Assembly (NCBI GenBank): GCA_905480605.1
Contig: CAJQRD010000028.1
Location: forward strand, 1 to 51,138
From: an uncultured Saprospiraceae bacterium
GTDB lineage: Bacteria > Bacteroidota > Bacteroidia > Chitinophagales > Saprospiraceae
Direction of reading: 5' to 3'
DNA: 51,138 nt
The translations under genes were made by a program, and so were the position numbers. Below, in pieces: positions 22,401 through 40,684 of the stretch (position 1 is its first letter; the number at the start of each line of letters is the position of its first letter). The notes beneath the pieces are model-generated. The model saw only the letters and a list, made by a program, of their open reading frames with translations. It did no database searches and had not been told where the DNA came from.

Positions 22401-25400
22401 TCAAGTCATTATTTCTCCACCTTTCTCACCACTCCCAGGACCTAGTGTAATTACTTGGTCGGCAAACTCAATCAAGGTCTTATTGTGTTCAATAAAAAGT
22501 ATAGTGTCACCGCGTTCAACCAACGTTTGAAAAACTTCAATTAAATTTAGAATATCAAAATAATGAAGCCCTGTACTTGGTTCATCGAACAGATATAAAG
22601 TTGCACCTTTTCGCTTTTTCATCATTGAAGTTGCCAGCTTCAATCGTTGGGCTTCACCTCCAGACAAAGTGTTGCCAGCATGTCCCAAAAGTAAATGACC
22701 CACGCCTACCCGTTTGAGTATATCTAATTTTTCAAGAATAGTTTCAGAATCAAAAAACTCAATTGCCTCTTGTACTGTCATCCTCAATACTTCACCAATT
22801 GAACGTTCTTTATATTTACATGTCAGAATAGTATCATTGTAACGCAATCCATTGCAGGAATCACATGTGAGCCAGATATCGCTCATGAAGTCCATGCTCG
22901 TTTTTAGTTTGCCATGACCAGAGCAAGTAGGACATTTTCCATTCTTACTCTGGTATGAAAAATCAGCTTTTTTCAATCCTGTCTTTTTAGCGAATTCTGT
23001 TTTTGAGAATACGGTTTTTATCTGCTCAATTATTCCAGTATGCGATACAGGAGTACTCAATCGATTTCCTGTCAGAGCATCCTGATCAATAAGCAACACT
23101 TCTTCAAATTGATCCATTCCACTTACTGAAGTACAACCCATTGGTCGCTTCTTTAACCAGGAACTATACAACACGTCTTTAACCAAACTTGATTTTCCAC
23201 TTCCGGAAATTCCAGTGACTGCTATTATTTGTCCTGCATAAAAATCTATATCAAGATTCTTAAGGTTATTGGCAAATGCTCCTTTCAAACCAAAAGAATC
23301 ACCTCTTTCACTTGGCTTCTTAACTGGAGTAACCCGCTGATCTTGAAAAATCTTGTATGTAACAGATTGTTTTGCTTTAGAAATATTATCAACCTTGCCT
23401 TGGTAGATCACTTCGCCACCTTGGCTTCCAGCACCTGGACCCATTTCAATCAAGTAGTCGGCACTTCGAATAAAAGATAGATCGTGCTCAACCACAACAA
23501 CAGTATTCCCATTCTCTACAATATTTTTCAATATTCCTGACAAAACGGCTATTTGCTTTTCATCCAACCCTATTGTTGGTTCATCCAAAACATAGATAAC
23601 ACCAAATAAGTGTGTAGACAATTGACCTGCAAGAGTAACCCGTTGTCTCTCCCCTCCAGAAAGTGTACTCACTGCTCTATCCAAGTTTAAATATCCCAAT
23701 CCAAGATCCACAATAGACTTCAAAGACTTTTTAACTGTTGGTATTATGACTCTACCTATTGCCAAAACAACAGCATCTAATTTACTATCGTACTTGTTAT
23801 TTAGTGACTCAATCAACTCGAGATAAGACGCAATGCTCAATTGAGTAAGCTCATGAATGTTTTTTCCAAGAAACTTTATGCTTAACAATTCTGATTTCAA
23901 CCGACTTCCGTGACATGTTGGACACAAAACATCATACAATAGCTCTTCTAGGTTTTTAATATTTTTGTTATGTAGTTTTCGTTGATATTCATCATCAATA
24001 TAATTACAGAGTCCCAACCATTTTGCGGTTAAAGATTGTGTTCCAATTCTTGACTTGGTATTAAACTTCCAAGTGACATTCCAAATCGCATCGCCCGTTC
24101 CATACAAAATAACATCTTTCACTTCACTTTCCAATTGCTGCCACGGCCGTTCGATATTCCACTTCTTTTGTTGTACCACTTCCTTTAGCGTTGCAATGAA
24201 TTGTCCATTTTCATCGGCATAATATCGTATTGCCTTATTTACAGATACACCACCTTCCAAAATAGATTTATCAGGGGAAACAATCACCATGTCTGGATCG
24301 CATTTACGTTTAAATCCAAGGCCTTTACAATCAGGGCATGCCCCAAGATGGTGGTTGAATGAAAAATGTTGAGCCGTATAAATTTTACCCTCATGTTGTG
24401 CAATCCTTGAATACAACAATCTAAATAAATCGTACACTCCTGAAAGTGTACCAACCGTGGATCTCTTCGAAGGAGCTCCTCCCTTTCTGTTGATCCCTAT
24501 TGCCGGTCCCAAACCTGAGAAAGAAGAAATTTTAGCTTCACTGTTTTGTTGAATAAAACTTCTGTTATATGTCGATAACGATTCCGTAAATCGCGCATTC
24601 GATTCTGCAAACAGAGTATCGTATACCAAGGATGACTTTCCACTTCCAGAAATTCCAGTGACAACTGTCAACTGATTTTTTGGAATACAAATATCAATAT
24701 TCTTAAGTCCATGAGTTGTTACACCGTTCAGTATAATTTCATTTTGATTAGAAGTCTTGGAAGCATGGTTTTTTATTTCGACCCTGCCGTTTTCCTGATG
24801 CACTTCAGGAATTCCTTGGTACGCAATAGTACCTCCTTCTTTACCACTTTTGGGGCCAAGCTCAATGTGCCAATCACTCCTGTTTATAATCGTTTCATTT
24901 TGTTCAATACAAACAATGGTATTCCCTTTCTCCTTAATTCTGTCAAACAAATGCAGCAAGGATTTAATATCATCATTATGCAATCCAATACTTGGTTCAA
25001 TAATCACGTACAACGTATCTCCTGTGTCTTTTTTCTGAAGCTGATTTGCTATTTTTACACGCTGCGCCTCTCCCCCGGAAAGTGTAGTTGAAGACTGCCC
25101 AAGCGTTAAGTACCCAAGTCCTATTTCTTGTAATATCTTGAGTCCTGACAATACTTTTATTTGATCCCTAAAAAAGGCCATGGCTTCATTGATTGATAAC
25201 TTATAACATTCCGCAATTGACAATCCATTGTATTTTACCCGAAGTGTTTCTTCGTTAAATCGATCACCGTTACATATGCCACATACCAAGTCCACATTAC
25301 CCAAAAAATGCATTCCAATTTGTGTCTTTCCCGCACCTTGACACATTTCGCACCTTCCCCCTTTATTATTAAATGAAAATCGAGATTTGGTAAATCCTTG

Positions 25401-27194
25401 AGATTTTGATTCCAGCAGACCAGCATAGATGTCACGAATATGATCAGACAATCCTAAGTAGGTTGCTGGATTACTACGAGGTGTTTTTCCTATTGGTGAA
25501 TGATCAATAAAAATCAGTTTATTGAGGGCATCAATATTTTCATGTCTGGTCAAGTTTGCAGGTTCACCGGTTTCAATGCCCAACTGCTGTTGCACTGCTT
25601 TGAGTAAAATACCTCTTACAAGACTTGATTTTCCAACACCAGATCTTCCACTCACAACATTGAGTTTTCCAAGTTGAAATTCAACATCAATATTTTTCAG
25701 ATTTCTTTCTTGACATCCAATAAGGCGAATTGAATTGCTTTCTGTTTTTGAAAATAATGTATGTCTCGATCTGACCTCTTCATTAGAGTTTTTAATCGCT
25801 CTGAATGTTGGACTGATCTTTTTCAATTCATCCTTATGACAAAACTCTGAAAACGCACCATTAAAAATGAGTTCTCCCCCTTCGACCCCAGCTTCAGGAC
25901 CAATCTCTATTATATGTTCAGCACTTGTAATTGTATCAAGATCATGCTCAACAACAATAACAGTATTTCCCCTTTTAACCAGTTGTTTAAAATGGTAAAT
26001 CAACCTTTCGTTCTCTTCTCGATGTAACCCAATTGAAGGCTCATCAAAGACGTAAAGCACATCACTCAACGGAACTAAGATTTGATTGGCTACTCGAATA
26101 CGCTGAATCTCGCTGGCACGAAGCGATTTCGAGGAACGATCTAAAGTCAAATGACCCAACCCTAAATCTTTTAATAAATCAACTTGAGACTCAATTTTCT
26201 TAATAATTTCACGCGCCACAACTTTCCAGATATTTGATTGAATCCACAATTTAAGATCGTTCAATTCCAAGGTTGCTATTTCTGCTATTGATTTTCCATT
26301 AACATCAACACTCAAAGCATCGTCATTCAAACGCGTTCCTTTACACATTTCGCACGTCACAGAGTGTACATACTTTAGAATATTAGCATTTCGATCTCTT
26401 CTTAGAATATCAGACATAATCGGAATCATTCCTTTGTAATAACCTTCTTCACGAGGTTTTGCCTTAATCCCTGTCCACTTCAACCGAGACTCAAGACTAT
26501 GCTTTCCAAAAGGTACTTTAATTTTATCACTTCCATATAAAATTACTTCACGCTGAAGATCTGTAAGTTCATTCCATGGAACATCAACACTGAACCCTTC
26601 AGCTTTACAAACTTGATTCAACACATCAATAGTGACTTGTGAGTACATGATATATCCATTGGGCAATGTTGGGGCCAATGCTCCTTCTCTAATTGACTTT
26701 TTGGGAACCGCAATAAGACGGTTAATGTCTATTTTTTCCTGCCTTCCAATCCCATTGCAATGTTTACATTTACCTACTTCTGAATTGAAAGAAAAGAGTG
26801 CGCGAGAAAGCACAATGTTTTTATCTGTTGATCCTGTCCTTGCAAACAATAAACGCAACAAATCATAAATATCCGACATTGTTCCAACTGTAGAACGTGC
26901 ATGCATTCCTGTTGTACGTTGTCCAATTGCAATAACTGGAGAAAGACCTTCGATTTTATCTACATCAGGACGATTCAATTTCCCTATAAACTGTCGAGCA
27001 AAAGAAGGCAAAGTTTCAAAATATCTTCGTTGTCCTTCTTTGGCAATTATCTCAAACACAAGGCTAGACTTTCCAGATCCTGATATTCCCGTCACAACAA
27101 TAAATTTATTATGAGGAATACTCAATGAAATATTCTTTAAGTTGTTTGTTCTAGCTCCTTGAATTACAATTTTCGGATGTCCCTCTGAGATCAT
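22401..27194 (-). CDS. Tandem class II UvrA (four ABC modules), 1597 aa
   Basis: Two complete UvrA units are joined in one chain, about residues 1-800 and 815-1597. Walker A motifs lie at 36-43 (GISGSGKS), 516-523 (GRSGVGKS), 847-854 and 1328-1335 (both GISGSGKS). UvrA zinc modules with CxxC pairs are present in all four quarters (143/146 and 281/284; 615/618 and 638/641; 953/956 and 1091/1094; 1421/1424 and 1444/1447). ABC signatures are LSGGE at 705, 1178 and 1510, but LRASE at 358-362. Walker B is intact at 384, 1204 and 1537, but reads VIIEP at 730-734, so Asp is replaced by Ile. The H-loop His of the same module is Gln765. Both units run straight from the 'STVGT' region to FSFN...C..C, so the UvrB-binding domain of true repair UvrA is absent. 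This makes it a class II (UvrA2/DrrC-like) protein, acting on DNA or in drug tolerance without UvrB. It stands alone; a shift in the middle or a fusion by sequencing error is unlikely, because the linker is smooth. Confidence 0.93.
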
Positions 27195-27660: not shown

Positions 27661-29541
27661 ATGGGAGATAAAAAAGTAAACATAAAATCCGATGATCATG
27701 CGAGAGCAAATTTTCTTAGTCACTTAATCGATGACCTGAAGAGTCTTGAACACATGTTTGAGAACGGAATGATAGAAGATGACATCATACGTATTGGTGC
27801 AGAACAAGAATTCTGTCTTGTAAATGAACAGTGGCAGCCAGCTAAGAACGCACTTGAAATACTAAAAGAAATAAATGACCCGCATTTTACTACTGAATTG
27901 GCCCGGTATAATTTAGAAATCAACTTGGATCCTGTAAAGCTTTATGAAGATGCTTTTACAGTGGTTGAAGATCAGATCAGGTCACTTTTAAAAAAAGCAA
28001 AGTCTGCTGCAAACAATAACAACAGTAAAATAGTACTGACCGGAATACTTCCAACCATTTCAAAACACGAGTTGGAGTTAGAGTTTATGACACCCAAAGA
28101 TCGTTATTACGCATTGAATGATCAACTTAAAGAAGCGAGGGGTGGTGATTTCAGACTAAACCTTTTGGGAGTTGATGAACTTTCAATCGCGCATAATTCA
28201 GTAATGTTTGAAGCCTGTTGCACGAGCTTTCAAATGCACTTACAAATCAGCCCTGATGATTTTATGAAAAGCTATAATTGGGCTCAGGCAATATCAGGAC
28301 CAGTTCTTGGTGTATCTGCAAATGCTCCTTTATTGCTTGGCAAAGAATTATGGAGTGAAACACGTATTGGGCTTTTCCAACAAAGTATTGATACTCGAGA
28401 GGTTTCGATGGCTCAATCCGAACAAGAAGCTAGAGTCTCCTTTGGAAACGATTGGATCACTGGAAACATCGTGGATTATTATAAAAAGCAAATTTCTCGT
28501 TTTAAAACCTTACTTACTAAAGAAATTACAAAAAGCTCTTTTGAAGAATTGAAAGAAGGAACAATTCCTAAATTGAATGCCCTAAATCTGGTCAATGGAA
28601 CGATCTATAGATGGAATCGACCGTGTTATGGTGTCGGTAATGGGAAACCTCATATAAGGATCGAGAACAGGTATATTCCATCAGGGCCAACCATAACCGA
28701 CGAAATGGCCAATTTTGCATTTTGGGTTGGCCTTATGAAAGGACGGCCAGCAGAATTTGATGACCTTCCAAAGGTGATGGAATTTAAGGATGCCAAATCT
28801 AATTTTATCCGTGCAGCACGAACTGGCTCTGAATCGATAATGAGCTGGAAAGGAAAAGCTATTCCTCTCGATCAATTGGTGCTTAATGAATTGTTGCCGA
28901 TTTCAAGAAATGGACTTGAGAAAATGCAGATTAACAAAGAAGATATTGATAAGTACCTTGATGTGATTAAGGTAAGAATCTCAAAACATACTGGTTCGCA
29001 ATGGATGGTAAAAAATTACCGCAATCTCAAAGACAGGCTAAAACCCTATGATGCATCAGTCGCTCTTACGGCAGCCATTCATGCCAATCAACAATCTCTC
29101 AGTTCAATAGGCGAATGGCCAGTTTTCCACGACTTCACATCTTTCAAATCTTCACCAAGTATAATTGATCATATTATGACGTCTGACCTGGTAACCGCAA
29201 GTGCCAATGATCTTGGCCTCTTAACCTTGCAATATATGAAGTGGAATAACATACATCATTTACCTGTAGTTGACAATAATGAAACATTGGTTGGCTTAAT
29301 TACCTGGCAGCATCTAAAACAATATTGGGATCAAGTTCATGATTCTGGTAATTTGTTAAGTGCCCGTCAAATTATGGTTAGTAATGTGATATCAGTTGAA
29401 ACTTCAACACCAATAAAACAAGCCATAGACATCATGAAGAAACACGAAATAGGTTGCTTGCCTGTATTACAGGATGCTCAACTTGTTGGAATCGTAACTG
29501 TCAAAGACTTAATCCTCTTTGACAATGCTAAAGATTCTTAG
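27661..29541 (+). CDS. GCS2-type carboxylate-amine ligase fused to two CBS domains, 626 aa
   Basis: The N-terminal 450 residues carry the GCS2 (glutamate-cysteine ligase family 2, COG2170-like) fold. Marker segments are RIGAEQEFCLVNEQWQPAKN (about 45-64, the G.E.E nucleotide/substrate motif), FTTELARYNLEINLDP (about 75-90), a FQMHLQI strand (about 190) and PHIRIENRYIPSGPT (about 325-340, the IE.R..P signature). The C-terminus is a Bateman pair: CBS1 from about 505 (IIDHIMTSDLVTASANDLGL ... HHLPVVDNNETLVGLIT) and CBS2 from about 572 (RQIMVSNVISVETSTP ... GCLPVLQDAQLVGIVTVKDL). The catalytic domain joins an amino group of an amino acid to a carboxylate using ATP, as in glutathione precursor synthesis. 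The CBS pair would make it responsive to adenylate levels. No gshB neighbour is present, so the actual product is uncertain. Confidence 0.85.
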   Translation: MGDKKVNIKSDDHARANFLSHLIDDLKSLEHMFENGMIEDDIIRIGAEQEFCLVNEQWQPAKNALEILKEINDPHFTTELARYNLEINLDPVKLYEDAFTVVEDQIRSLLKKAKSAANNNNSKIVLTGILPTISKHELELEFMTPKDRYYALNDQLKEARGGDFRLNLLGVDELSIAHNSVMFEACCTSFQMHLQISPDDFMKSYNWAQAISGPVLGVSANAPLLLGKELWSETRIGLFQQSIDTREVSMAQSEQEARVSFGNDWITGNIVDYYKKQISRFKTLLTKEITKSSFEELKEGTIPKLNALNLVNGTIYRWNRPCYGVGNGKPHIRIENRYIPSGPTITDEMANFAFWVGLMKGRPAEFDDLPKVMEFKDAKSNFIRAARTGSESIMSWKGKAIPLDQLVLNELLPISRNGLEKMQINKEDIDKYLDVIKVRISKHTGSQWMVKNYRNLKDRLKPYDASVALTAAIHANQQSLSSIGEWPVFHDFTSFKSSPSIIDHIMTSDLVTASANDLGLLTLQYMKWNNIHHLPVVDNNETLVGLITWQHLKQYWDQVHDSGNLLSARQIMVSNVISVETSTPIKQAIDIMKKHEIGCLPVLQDAQLVGIVTVKDLILFDNAKDS

Positions 29542-29710
29542 TAAGGATATGGATTAAACCATAAATGTTGATCTTCTATTCTCTGTCATAATACTCTCTT
29601 GAAATATTCATTGTGAAGAATAACCTTTAGTTAGAATAATAAACGGCTTGTTACTCTTATAAAATAAATCTAATTAATGTATATTTCCGATCTATCTAAA
29701 GTTGGAAATT

Positions 29711-31594
29711 ATGGAAGACACTAAAATGCTGAATTATATTAAAGATGTATTAGATAATATGCCACCTGACTGGTTGAATCTAACAACCCATAGACTAGAT
29801 GTTTATAATGAAAAATTAGCCAAGGTTCAATTCTTAGAACAGTTTGAAAACTTATATAATCATCATCATTCTACTCAGGTAGATGTTGGAGTGGCATTAA
29901 GTGAATTACCTACGGCTTACGATTATATTAGATTAGGCCATCCATTATCTTGTATACTAGAATGGGTCATTGCTAACTTAAATAATCTAAAACCAAAAAA
30001 TGTAATAAGCTTTTCTTCAAAGACAATTCCTGTTTTGGCAATTCTAAGAAAAAATTTATTAGATAATAAAAACACACAAATCATCTATAAAGATGAATTA
30101 CCTGATTTTTTTGATACTGAATTATTAAGGAGTGTCTATGGTTATAAATTTGATTTGAAGAATATTGAAAAAGTAGAAGATATTGCTGCCCTCGGTAACT
30201 ACCAAGAAAAAGGCAGCTCTATTTATATTTCACAAGAAGATGAAATTTTTAATGTTGACCTCACACCAATCCCAAAAACTAAAGGAATTGATTTTTTCAT
30301 CAATGTCCATTCTCCATTTGGAAGTGTTTTACTGGTAAATGGTGAACAAAATGAAAATTACATTTCAGAAATTCAACACGTCCGAAGAAGAGAGACAATT
30401 GCAATGACGCCGGCCAATTGTCTTGCTGTTTTAACTTTACTTATTGAGAAATCTTCTTCCAATACAAAAAGCAACGTCGAGACAAACAAAAAACTTGTCA
30501 TAGATTCAATTAACGAGATTACAGGTACAAATACAAAGGCACTAGTTGGTTCAAGTGGACTTTCTATTCAATATGCAATTATGATGGGGCTAGTTCACGA
30601 TGCACTAGAAAATCATAAAGGAAAGGCTATTAAATTTGTAGTTCCTCCAAATTGTTATGGTGGAACAAATGACCAATCAAGACGGGTTGCTGCTTGCATT
30701 GATAATGTTGAAGTGGTGGATCTCCCAGTGGATGGTGATCATGATATGGTCCAAAGTATTGATATCGTTTTAGATAAAATTGCTTCAGAAGATGCTATCC
30801 CTTACATAATTGCTGAAATTCCAACAAACCCTAGAGTTGAAGTTCCAGATCTTAAAAAATTAAAAGCTGTTTTATGTAAAGAACGAAATACTGCAACAGG
30901 TGAAATGGCCACCGATCCAGTTTTTATTTTAGATCAAACCTTTTGTCCTAATGTTCACTTTTTAGGGGAAGGTGAAATACTCTCAACCGTTAGAACTATT
31001 TCATTTGCCAGTGGGTCAAAATTTCCAAGTGGCGGGTTATGTACAGCTGGTTACTGTATAGGGAATAAAAAAACAGATGCTTTGATGGAAAAAATAGAAA
31101 TGCATCTAAGACTTTGCGATAATGGAGCTACAGATCTTCAAATTGAAATATTAGCAAAACAGTTGCCTTCAATGAAACAAAGAATTATTGATGCTTACAA
31201 GAATACACGAAAATTTGTGAACTTCATCAACGATACTTTACCAGAAGCAAAAATAAATTTTGTTTCAGAAGAATTGGCAAAAAAAGGATTTACACCCTCA
31301 GTTTTTTCACTAGATCTTCCCACTAAAGGAAATACTGAAGAAGAAAAAGAATCTTATAAAAGAGCATTAAATCATAAACTAATCAATCTAATGATATCCG
31401 AAATCCCAAATGAAAGTAAATACTGCGTAAGCTATGGACAGTTAAAAGGATGTTATTGGACAATACCTGCAACATCTACTCAAGGGACGACGAAAGAAGG
31501 CGACAAAGATTATATTGCCCGAGTAGCACTTTCGCCTACTATGGATCTTGACCATCATAAAAAAGTATTTTTAAAATTTGTTGAAAAAATTTAA
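29711..31594 (+). CDS. Large Cys/Met-metabolism PLP-dependent enzyme, 627 aa
   Basis: The second half is a fold-type I PLP enzyme of the cystathionine gamma-synthase family. Landmarks are LVGSSGLSIQYAIMMGL (cofactor phosphate region), PPNCYGGTNDQSRR (the YGGT motif), IIAEIPTNPRVEVPDL (the E.P.NP motif), FILDQTFCP (the Asp that contacts the pyridine nitrogen, about 408) and TISFASGSKFPSGGLC (Schiff-base Lys about 437). The protein is about 200 residues longer than the usual 390-420, through an N-terminal extension without a recognised domain (starting TKMLNYIKDVLDNMPPDWLN). Such long forms occur in Bacteroidota; the reaction (synthase, lyase or sulfhydrylase) cannot be chosen from sequence. 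The start is set at ATG 29711; the frame extends 3 codons to a TTG. It lies 170 nt after the GCS2-CBS gene, so a shared role in thiol or sulfur amino-acid metabolism is plausible. Confidence 0.85.
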   Translation: MEDTKMLNYIKDVLDNMPPDWLNLTTHRLDVYNEKLAKVQFLEQFENLYNHHHSTQVDVGVALSELPTAYDYIRLGHPLSCILEWVIANLNNLKPKNVISFSSKTIPVLAILRKNLLDNKNTQIIYKDELPDFFDTELLRSVYGYKFDLKNIEKVEDIAALGNYQEKGSSIYISQEDEIFNVDLTPIPKTKGIDFFINVHSPFGSVLLVNGEQNENYISEIQHVRRRETIAMTPANCLAVLTLLIEKSSSNTKSNVETNKKLVIDSINEITGTNTKALVGSSGLSIQYAIMMGLVHDALENHKGKAIKFVVPPNCYGGTNDQSRRVAACIDNVEVVDLPVDGDHDMVQSIDIVLDKIASEDAIPYIIAEIPTNPRVEVPDLKKLKAVLCKERNTATGEMATDPVFILDQTFCPNVHFLGEGEILSTVRTISFASGSKFPSGGLCTAGYCIGNKKTDALMEKIEMHLRLCDNGATDLQIEILAKQLPSMKQRIIDAYKNTRKFVNFINDTLPEAKINFVSEELAKKGFTPSVFSLDLPTKGNTEEEKESYKRALNHKLINLMISEIPNESKYCVSYGQLKGCYWTIPATSTQGTTKEGDKDYIARVALSPTMDLDHHKKVFLKFVEKI

Positions 31595-32605: not shown

Positions 32606-34114
32606 ATGAGTTTGATAATGTTTTTATATCTGGTTGCTTTTTGCATAATTCACTATGCAACAGCTATCGTTTTACGTAAGAAATTTTCAATCGTTTTTGA
32701 TAATAAAACTCTTTTAGCGACGTCATTATTTTTAATAATGATAATTTCTATTTTTTTCTTCGGTAACCTTGAATCCAACCCTAGAAATGTTACACTCTTA
32801 GATGATAAGATTTATTGGTTGCTTTTAATCACTTTTGGAAGTCATGCCATCCTTCAATTTCTATTTTGGTTTTTATACTCCTTGCTAAGGCATTATCAAT
32901 TAACCAGACTCCCAAGGTTCACCTTTAATATATTCGCATTAATTATTTTTACTTTTACCGTAGTGTTATCTGCGAAATACTTTTTTGCATTTGACTTGGC
33001 GGGTTTTCTTGTCACTTCAACGGTAATTTCTGCCATTGTAGGTCTGTCTGTACAAGATACCTTATCCAACTTGTTTGCTGGAGTTTCTTTACAGAGTGAG
33101 GCGCCGTTTACAATCGGGGAATGGGTTGATTTAGGAGGTCAAGAAGGAAAGGTTGTTGATCAAAATTAGAGATCATTAACATTGTTATCAAGAGCAAATC
33201 ATAGGATCACTTTACCCAATAAAATGGTTGCTCAAGATAAAATAATCAACTACTCAAGACCGAATCCTCGTCAGATTCATATTTTTGATGTTGGACTAGA
33301 TTATTCACATCCCCCTAATGAAGTAAAGAAAATTTTAAACAAAGTTTTAAATGATATGAGTGAAGTGACAATTGATGAAGTTGCGTTTCCTTTTGTCAAA
33401 GAGTACGCTGACAGCGGAATCATTTATAGCTTGAAGTTTTGGATAGAAGACTACGGTCAAGTACCATACATACAGGATAAAGTGTTGTCAAGATTGTGGT
33501 ACGTTCTAAATAGGAAAAACATAAAAATTCCTTACCCAATCAATGAATTGCATGTCCAAATGCTTGACACTGAAGCACTTTCTAAAAGTCATATTTATAA
33601 TAAAGAAAAAGTACTTAGAGAATTAAGTGATTTTGATTGACTCAAGAACATGAACCAAAAACAACTGGGAATGCTCTCTGAAAAATCATGGATAGAATCA
33701 TATGCAAAAGGTGAGACACTGATCATGCAAGGCAATGAAGGTGATTCAATGTTTATTTTAGTTTCTGGTAAAGTAGATATACTAATTTTGAATCCCGAAG
33801 GGGTAAATGTAAAAGTAGCAGATAAATATAGAGGTGACTTTTTTGGAGAAATGAGTTTACTTTCAGGTAACCCACGTTCTGCCACGATTAAAGCTAAGAC
33901 AGATACAACAGTTGTTGTTATAGATAAGAAATCGTTTACTGAAATTTTATTGAAAGATTCAGCATTGCTTGATATATTTGTTAACTCTCTTGAATCAAAT
34001 CAATCTGCACTGGCTAAGATAATAGAAGATTTTTCGCAACAAAAAGATGTAAAAGAGTCTGGTCGTGTCATTTTAATGAGACGCATCAGGTCATATTTAA
34101 ATATTCCCGTTTAA
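32606..34114 (+). pseudogene. MscS-type channel with C-terminal cyclic-nucleotide-binding domain; two in-frame stops
   Basis: A single reading frame from ATG 32606 to 34114 encodes a 500-residue channel, interrupted only by TAG at 33167-33169 and TGA at 33638-33640, both in phase. Four membrane helices (starting SLIMFLYLVAFCIIHYATA) and the MscS pore segment STVISAIVGLSVQDTLSNLF lead into GEWVDLGGQEGKVVDQN, the stop, and RSLTLLSRANHRITLPN. In relatives this join is a Trp (W-R-S/T), so TGG to TAG is the likely change. The second stop lies between the beta/C-terminal vestibule domain and the cNMP-binding fold (KGETLIMQGNEGDSMFILVS, then the phosphate-binding cassette GEMSLLSGNPRSATIKA with its Arg). 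No frameshift or deletion separates the pieces, so the lesions are few and young, or are base errors. Intact, it would be a cAMP- or cGMP-gated mechanosensitive channel. Confidence 0.85.
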
Positions 34115-39224: not shown

Positions 39225-40648
39225 TTATTTGTACAACGGAGCTGTATATTCTGGATGCATAAGGTTTTCAATACTCAATATACGATCAAGTTCTTCTTTT
39301 GACAACAATTCTTTTTCGAGTACTAACTCTTGGATGGTTTTACCGGTAGTAACTGCTTCCTTACCTAAAAGGTCTCCCATGTGGTGTCCAATATAAGGAT
39401 TTAGGAAAGTAATCAGTCCGATAGAATTGAGAACCATCTGCTTGGTATGTTCCGCGTTAGCCGTAATACCTGAAATACACTTATCAGAAAGCGTTGTGCA
39501 TACGTTTGAGAGTAGTTCTATAGATTCGAAAAGACATTGTGCGATAACAGGCTCCATTACATTTAGTTGCAACTGGCCTCCTTCTGCCGCAAAAGAAATG
39601 GTGACATCATTTCCTATAATTTTGAAACAAACTTGATTAACTACTTCCGGAATCACAGGATTTACTTTTGCCGGCATAATTGACGACCCGGCTTGCATTT
39701 CAGGCAAATTGATTTCATTGAAGCCGCATCTAGGACCTGAGGACAATAAGCGAAGATCATTACAAATTTTTGAAAGTTTTACTGCTGTCCGTTTGAGCGC
39801 ACCAGAAACCATGACGTAGGCGCCGCAATCTGAAGTGGCTTCAATTAGATTAGGAGCTTTGACAAAACTGGCTTTCGTAAATTGTGATAAATATCCGATA
39901 GAAATATCTGTGAAACCTTTAGGAGCATTAACTCCAGTACCTATAGCAGTAGCTCCTAGGTTGACTTCCAGGATTAGGTCTCGGGTTTTTTAAGACTTTT
40001 AGTTTCTTCTTTCAAGTTTGCAGACCAAGCACCAAATTCATCACCTAATGACATAGGTACAGCATCCTGCAATTGTGTTCTTCCCATCTTAAGGACTTTT
40101 TCAAATTCAGCTGCCTTTCTATCCAAAATGGTGGTCAGATAGTTCAGCTTCTCCAAAAGGTGATTGATATAGTAATAAATAGCTACCCTAAATCCAGTTG
40201 GATAGGCATCATTAGTTGATTGTGATTTATTAACGTGGTCGTTGGGGTGAAGTATATCGTATCTACCTTTAGGGTATTTATTCAATTCGAGCCCTACGTT
40301 TGCAATGACTTCATTTGTATTCATATTTACAGAAGTACCTGCACCTCCCTGGAATACATCAGAAGGGAAGTACGCAGCATATTTAGGAAGGTTGTTCAAC
40401 AACTCATCACATGCCTGTATAATCATTTTGGCCTTGCCTTCGGGTATAGACCCAATTTCTTTATTCGCAAAAGCACAAGCCTTTTTGGTCAGTATCAATC
40501 CTTTTAAAAAAATCGGATAATCGCCAATTTTAGATTTTGATATTTGAAAGTTATTAATAGCTCTTTGGGTATGAATACCATAAAAGAGCTCATTTGCAAT
40601 TTCCATTTCTCCAAGTAAATCCACTTCTGTTCTACTATTCTTAGCCAT
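39225..40648 (-). pseudogene. aspA: Aspartate ammonia-lyase, one-base frameshift
   Basis: Two frames on the minus strand together make a full-length aspartase of 474 residues, the usual family size. The first part starts at ATG 40648 (MAKNSRTEVDLLGEMEIANE; a TTG start at 40684 is less likely) and contains GGAGTSVNMNTNEVIANVG, HPNDHVNKSQSTNDAYPTG and MGRTQLQDAVPMSLGDEFGA. It breaks at SLKKPET-stop (39974). The second part carries [20 protein letters not shown] and the active-site signature [20 protein letters not shown], and ends at [11 protein letters not shown]. One missing base near 39987, at the junction of GGG and a T6 run (plus strand), restores the frame (SLKKARDLILE). A homopolymer error is a real alternative to true inactivation. 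The enzyme turns aspartate into fumarate plus ammonia and lies directly upstream of sdhCAB. Confidence 0.88.
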
Positions 40649-40684
40649 CACTATTTTTTTGCCTTTTTCTATTGGGATAATCAA

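Follow-up and report, generated by a model that had tools for sequence, protein, structure and literature searches.

A tandem UvrA protein of Saprospiraceae without UvrB-binding domain and with a family-wide non-canonical distal ATP site in its N-terminal unit

Architecture of the tandem UvrA

In our study, a window of 51,138 nucleotides (the whole stretch of DNA that was analysed; contig CAJQRD010000028.1, assembly GCA_905480605.1, from an uncultured Saprospiraceae bacterium) was found to carry a gene for a tandem UvrA protein, here called P0001, whose features are collected in Table 1. A first-pass annotation had described one chain of 1597 residues containing two UvrA units, both lacking the UvrB-binding domain, and the open frame together with the gaps in the profile alignments has confirmed this description. 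The annotation named no strand; the frame lies on the minus strand. In the N-terminal unit (N-unit), residues 7-122 correspond to positions 4-119 of the profile PRK00349 and residues 130-798 to positions 266-924; the same stretch is missing from the C-terminal unit (C-unit), where the match picks up again at position 267. An alignment with the UvrA of C. thermocellum has shown the identical gap in both units. The absent portion of the UvrA profile, at about 119-266, is presumably the UvrB-binding domain, as taken from the published domain order. Against TIGR00630 (cut-off 729.8) the N-unit scored 836.2 and the C-unit 749.9, and against PRK00349 (cut-off 1147) the corresponding values were 852.9 and 758.0, with 1596.1 for the whole protein.

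Structure prediction with AlphaFold and comparison with Foldseek were carried out on each unit separately. The mean predicted local distance difference test score (pLDDT) was 84.1 for the N-unit and 86.4 for the C-unit, and for both of them ranks 1-39 against the PDB were occupied entirely by UvrA chains of class I and class II. The four Cys residues of zinc module 2 and of zinc module 3 were found to be invariant in both units in all the rows that have a letter there. Both units therefore possess the UvrA fold and the zinc modules and are devoid of the UvrB-binding domain. The C-unit also aligns with residues 3-725 of a 736-residue class II single UvrA at 39% identity. The assignment to class II, as given in the first-pass annotation, is borne out by the domain content (UvrA fold, two nucleotide-binding domains (NBDs) and absence of the UvrB-binding domain), but descent from class II is not settled by the tree described below.

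Table 1. Features of the tandem UvrA gene in the window. Residue numbers are those of P0001; group A comprises the relatives with at least 60% identity to it.
Feature	Position	Strand	Basis or remark
Tandem UvrA P0001, 1597 aa, stop codon included	22401..27194	-	ATG at 27194, frame without internal stop; relatives of about 1500-1670 aa
N-terminal UvrA unit, residues 1-812	24759..27194	-	UvrA profile over 7-122 and 130-798; AlphaFold; Foldseek
C-terminal UvrA unit, residues 813-1597	22404..24758	-	UvrA profile; AlphaFold; Foldseek; alignment with class II single
UvrB-binding domain gap of N-unit, residues 123-129	26808..26828	-	Profile jumps from 119 to 266
Linker between units, residues 799-815, unconserved	24750..24800	-	9% mean identity in group A
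Signature I of N-unit, LRASE, residues 358-362, degenerate	26109..26123	-	Motif alignment
Walker A of NBD-II, N-unit, residues 516-525, intact in P0001	25620..25649	-	Motif alignment
Walker B of NBD-II, N-unit, VIIEP, residues 730-734: Ile replaces Asp at 732, catalytic Glu733 present	24993..25007	-	
H-loop of NBD-II, N-unit, IEQN, residues 763-766: Gln replaces His at 765	24897..24908	-	
Insertion (DNA-reading) domain of N-unit, residues 150-275, most conserved domain of the protein	26370..26747	-	
Conserved stretch of N-unit insertion domain, residues 226-255	26430..26519	-	13/30 columns invariant in 61 sequences
Basic motif in signature domain II of N-unit, residues 567-579, intact	25458..25496	-	Scored residues in 24/24 N-units
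Matching region of C-unit, residues 1377-1402, motif lost	22989..23066	-	TPR Arg in 0/24 C-units

State of the N-unit distal ATP site across the family

Three changes in the ATP-site motifs of the N-unit, namely LRASE in place of the NBD-I signature, Ile732 in Walker B and Gln765 in the H-loop of NBD-II, were found exactly at the residues reported in the first-pass annotation. The distal site of UvrA is described as being formed by ATP-binding domain II and signature domain I (PMC6486640), and the same pairing is given for Ecm16 (PMC10192343). All three changes therefore belong to the distal site of the N-unit, affecting both faces of this composite site (the signature I side and the NBD-II side), and the earlier proposal that they fall on a single site agrees with the published pairing. 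The other three sites of P0001 show LSGGE at 705, 1178 and 1510, Asp at 384, 1204 and 1537 and His at 417, 1237 and 1570. Judging from the three changes, normal turnover has probably been lost at the N-unit distal site.

To collect relatives, 84,980 species genomes were scanned with a pattern, which gave 84 confirmed stretches, 80 of them kept, at 74 loci; the titles of these loci name Bacteroidota, save L083 and L085, which are titled 'bacterium'. Fusions of similar length (about 1500-1670 residues) were found. A family set of 67 distinct frames, each longer than 1190 codons and P0001 among them, was assembled from these loci and from further genomes, shorter fragments being left out. It was divided by identity to P0001 into group A (at least 60%, 43 members), deep members (45-60%, 8 members) and group B (below 45%, 16 members). 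Sequences showing a gap or an X at one of the scored positions were excluded, and a signature of the form.S.GE was taken as canonical, so that LSPGE and LSSGE pass.

The N-unit distal site was fully canonical in 0/66 members, and the N-unit proximal, C-unit proximal and C-unit distal sites were canonical in 64/64, 62/62 and 62/62, respectively. Among hand-picked single-unit controls (11 of class I and 10 of class II) both sites were canonical in 21/21; of the 19 plasmid loci retrieved as controls, L121, L124 and L129, which are class I-like by length, were unused and L164 (c2_Scattley) was dropped. The non-canonical distal site of the N-unit is thus a family trait. Sequencing error or local decay has been ruled out as its cause, this site being non-canonical in all the scorable members. 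A natural deletion in L115 was also considered and rejected, as the gap consists of unread bases, and this member was left out of the scoring of the N-unit distal site.

The manner in which the site departs from the canonical state varies among the lineages. In group A, the Asp, the His and the.S.GE signature are all absent in 43/43 members; LRASE is present in 23 of them, residue 732 is Ile, Val, Thr, Leu or Ala, and residue 765 is Gln, once Asn. In all 16 members of group B the Walker A is gone, the Asp is absent with Glu in its place, the His is absent and the signature reads ISSGD. The seven deep members that could be scored have all lost Walker A at the Ser/Thr or at the Lys, with Asp732 present in 5/7 and His765 in 3/7, L081 and L085 holding both. 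The trio of changes is therefore conserved throughout group A, but the deep members partly keep the Asp and the His and break Walker A instead. No scored relative keeps Asp732, His765 and LSGGE together, a combination by which the first-pass annotation would have recognised local noise. By parsimony, each of five features has changed 1 to 3 times in the N-unit clade and none has changed in the C-unit clade.

DNA-reading domains

UvrA is reported to touch DNA mainly through its insertion domain and through signature domain II, and its distal site is said to contribute to the distinction between native and damaged DNA (PMC7835731). Within the tandem proteins, an unusually conserved insertion domain and an intact basic motif in signature domain II are present in the N-unit alone. 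The identity of the N-unit insertion domain is 85% within group A and 65% between groups A and B, as against 60% and 38% for that of the C-unit. In the controls, this domain ranks last of six in conservation, with 30% in class I (n=11) and 26% in class II (n=10), the other five showing 41-70%. In 61 sequences, 39/126 columns of the N-unit insertion domain were found to be invariant in comparison to 0/73 for ATP-binding domain II of the same unit. The ratio of nonsynonymous to synonymous substitution rates (dN/dS) of the N-unit insertion domain was 0.010-0.050 in six close pairs and reached 0.126 in the one remaining, and that of the whole gene was 0.06-0.14 in the seven pairs, two of which share L098 and gave nearly equal values. 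Residues 233-247 of this domain have a pLDDT below 50 in the predicted structure and may fold on a ligand.

In signature domain II, the motif PIG[KR]TPRSNPATY is present in 24/24 N-units. The Arg of its TPR was found in 0/24 C-units, in 11/11 class I and in 10/10 class II controls, other residues of the motif also being variable in the class II controls. A free-standing N-unit insertion domain was not found among 298 genomes of the order, as each of the 8 genomes matching at 1e-20 has its match within a frame of 1265-1667 codons.

Descent, spread and genomic neighbourhood

In an unrooted tree built from 24 N-units, 24 C-units and 21 single UvrA proteins, the N-units form one split and the C-units another, each with a bootstrap of 100, and the class I proteins form a split with 98. 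The maximum-likelihood split of N-units and class I versus C-units and class II has a bootstrap of 49. The approximately unbiased (AU) test allowed the N-units to be placed with the C-units (p 0.24), with class I (0.48) or with class II (0.49), and therefore a duplication, a fusion of two genes or a loss of the UvrB-binding domain by the N-unit itself are possible. The deep splits inside the N-units and inside the C-units match each other (L081; L084, L085 and group B; the rest). A single ancient fusion would lead to such agreement, but the two subtrees join the rest of the tree at different places.

Full or long copies of the gene were found in 12/199 genomes sampled from Saprospiraceae and in neither of the two congeners sampled; in a sample of the phylum, 2/395 genomes passed 1e-160, the own genome being counted. 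The tandem protein of Fulvivirga marina, which belongs to another order, has 77% identity to P0001 over the best segments and its single UvrA has 64%. The corresponding values are 79% and 66% for Neolewinella persica and 77% and 71% for Lewinella cohaerens. Since hosts of other orders are as close as those of the own family, this comparison suggests horizontal transfer of the tandem gene. Cultured carriers include N. persica (L049), F. marina (L057) and Roseivirga pacifica (L060). In Roseivirga spongicola (L106), a separate frame of 170 residues, lying upstream before 10841, starts like the N-terminus of the tandem gene.

A viral or plasmid origin was considered and rejected, no plasmid match to the tandem protein having been found at 1e-160. 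The 45 matching loci on viral contigs show 29-46% identity in the longer matches, with a few short pieces of up to 64%, and among the 15 listed of 60 matching phage records the best has 42% and spans a single UvrA.

The carriers of the tandem gene are generally equipped with other UvrA proteins. A class I-like single UvrA (56-71% identity to the own class I UvrA) was found in 22/22 carriers and a second single UvrA, at 44-48%, in 19/22, neither the own genome nor the L067 host being among those searched. UvrB scored above the cut-off in 21/24 carrier genomes; the remaining three are the host of L067, with a partial match, and the hosts of L083 and L084 (G602 and G604), which show weak matches and are possibly incomplete assemblies. 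The own genome also contains a further UvrA on another contig (G000 C99:376-2301); its open frame has 785 codons and is probably truncated, as it lies close to where that contig begins.

Flanks of up to 10 kb, many of them truncated, were compared at 65 loci, and no fixed neighbour was observed. A conserved operon partner has been rejected, the commonest shared neighbour family being present in 9/65 loci only. The commonest neighbour family of the window occurs in 8/64 other loci with varying place and orientation. A gene at 29702-31594 looks by eye like a pyridoxal phosphate-dependent enzyme of 630 residues, with relatives near tandem uvrA in 8/64 other loci, where distance and orientation vary.

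Further observations in the window come from reading of the sequence only. The frame at 27661-29541 (626 residues) resembles a glutamate-cysteine ligase with a C-terminal CBS pair. The frames at 32606-33169 and 33182-33640 look like one MscS-type channel gene split by an in-frame stop, and are followed by a frame resembling cyclic-nucleotide-binding proteins at 33650-34114. On the reverse strand, the frames at 39225-39812 and 39974-40684 resemble two parts of a single aspartate ammonia-lyase gene, due to decay or an assembly error.

Proposed role of the two halves and alternative readings

The reading that we favour, with about an even chance of being right, is that the protein is a covalent pseudo-dimer of two specialised UvrA units free of UvrB, a reader half and a motor half, acting independently of UvrB in the manner of Ecm16. 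The two units of the chain would close on one DNA duplex like the protomers of a UvrA dimer, and the N-unit would be the reader for one conserved DNA distortion or DNA-bound small molecule. As its distal site would no longer turn over normally, the N-terminal half would stay engaged, and the C-unit distal site, which is intact, would drive the ATP cycle together with the two proximal sites. Without UvrB no incision would be called in, and the bound agent would be displaced or unmasked, as proposed for Ecm16 and other class IIa proteins.

A further proposal, which we put forward tentatively and with more doubt than belief, is that the tandem proteins constitute a new UvrA class, a UvrB-independent and horizontally spread DNA-protection machine of Bacteroidota with the labour divided through fusion. 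The near-invariant insertion domain of the N-unit would be tuned to one specific DNA-bound molecule or DNA structure, its distal site would be permanently non-cycling and the C-unit would be a motor that has given up DNA reading, making the protein a natural asymmetric UvrA.

A number of observations weigh against the pseudo-dimer reading. At the N-unit distal site, the catalytic Glu of Walker B is present in 66/66 members, and loss of this residue is described as a hallmark of the degenerate sites of ATP-binding cassette (ABC) exporters (PMC7544095); some turnover at the site is therefore possible. For the same reason, the first-pass statement that one of four sites is dead stands in so far as the other three are canonical throughout the family, but 'dead' itself was inferred. 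Walker A retains its Lys and Ser/Thr in 40/43 members of group A versus 0/16 of group B, and therefore the site may be in a different state in the two groups. Signature variation is also met with elsewhere, as signature I reads LSPGE or LSSGE in 4/10 class II controls and the C-unit proximal site reads LSSGE in 16/16 members of group B. The dN/dS of ATP-binding domain II in the N-unit (0.07-0.13, four pairs) lies within the range of its C-unit counterpart (0.04-0.27, seven pairs). The insertion domains of the two units overlap in net charge, and a charge asymmetry between them was dropped as weak. The AU test fits the N-unit with the C-unit, class I or class II alike. No partner gene was found for the tandem UvrA, and no biosynthetic cluster was noticed by eye near the gene, no dedicated scan having been made.

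Relaxed constraint could by itself account for much of the asymmetry, which also counts against the pseudo-dimer reading. It may be supposed that after the fusion one distal site became dispensable and drifted, in which case the asymmetry itself would serve no function. ATP-binding domain II is the least conserved domain of the N-unit (63% in group A, 45% in group B and 19% between them) and has not a single invariant column, and the lineages break different motifs of the site, with the few changes per feature confined to the N-unit clade. Drift alone is nevertheless judged less likely than the pseudo-dimer reading: Glu733 has persisted in every member, the dN/dS of the domain stays low in the four pairs computed, and the replacements at 732 and 765 in group A are few in kind.

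It is more doubtful still that the protein serves as an accessory damage sensor which feeds normal repair by pairing with the canonical UvrA, or by handing lesions to it or to another nuclease. The frequent presence of UvrB and the constant presence of a class I-like UvrA in the carriers would suit such a role, but neither unit of P0001 has a UvrB-binding domain, no neighbour is conserved, and three carriers have no UvrB above the cut-off. An anti-phage or plasmid-defence ATPase is very improbable, since the sporadic distribution and the matches to the PADLOC models mad3 and mad8 are offset by the probable fall of these matches on UvrA-like or general ABC parts, by the absence of plasmid matches at 1e-160 and by the mostly low identity of those on viral contigs.

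The value of the tandem protein lies in what it makes accessible. UvrA is a symmetric dimer with four ATP sites, due to which it is hard to assign the role of each site per half. In a natural protein that joins the two halves in a single chain and has the same site always non-canonical, single ATP sites can be tested separately, and the highly conserved insertion domain of the N-unit suggests one conserved ligand to look for.

Comparison with known systems

In the open-access literature, subscription papers being mostly outside the search, no account of a tandem asymmetric UvrA family was found. Canonical class I UvrA shares with P0001 the common domain order and the motifs of three of the four sites, and it is the top PDB match by sequence and fold. 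It differs in possessing the UvrB-binding domain and in being a symmetric homodimer of about 940 residues per chain. In each of the six domains compared, the N-unit shows a higher identity to the class I controls than to those of class II, the values for the insertion domain being 21 and 20%.

The fused UvrA of Chlamydiae (NF001885, PRK00635; a model of 1809 positions) likewise has two UvrA units per chain. Compared with its model alone, about 137 positions lie in the UvrB-binding region whereas P0001 has 6 residues there, and P0001 scores 955.9 bits, below the cut-off of 3054. The distinction drawn in the first-pass annotation from a UvrB-linked chlamydial fusion thus holds against this model.

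In TM287/288, TAP, MRP1 and CFTR also, one composite site is non-canonical and the other is kept. The kin of P0001 differ from these proteins in being soluble, DNA-binding by kinship and provided with four sites, and in having the catalytic Glu.

Class II and IIa UvrA proteins (Deinococcus UvrA2 2VF7, Ecm16 7SH1, DrrC and CosU) are, like P0001, without the UvrB-binding domain and have two zinc modules per unit. The predicted N-unit model shows the same fold as the 2VF7 chains, with template modelling (TM) scores of 0.77-0.81 by query length. The class II singles consist of one unit and are homodimeric, whereas P0001 has two units in one chain; moreover, both sites are canonical in the 10 that were tested and their insertion domain is unconserved (26%), and the P0001 family differs in both respects. 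Class IIa UvrA has been linked to the removal of noncovalent DNA binders (PMC9241694), and protection by Ecm16 is reported to be independent of UvrA, B, C and D (PMC10192343). As the tandem protein is without a UvrB link, Ecm16 is its closest tested precedent.

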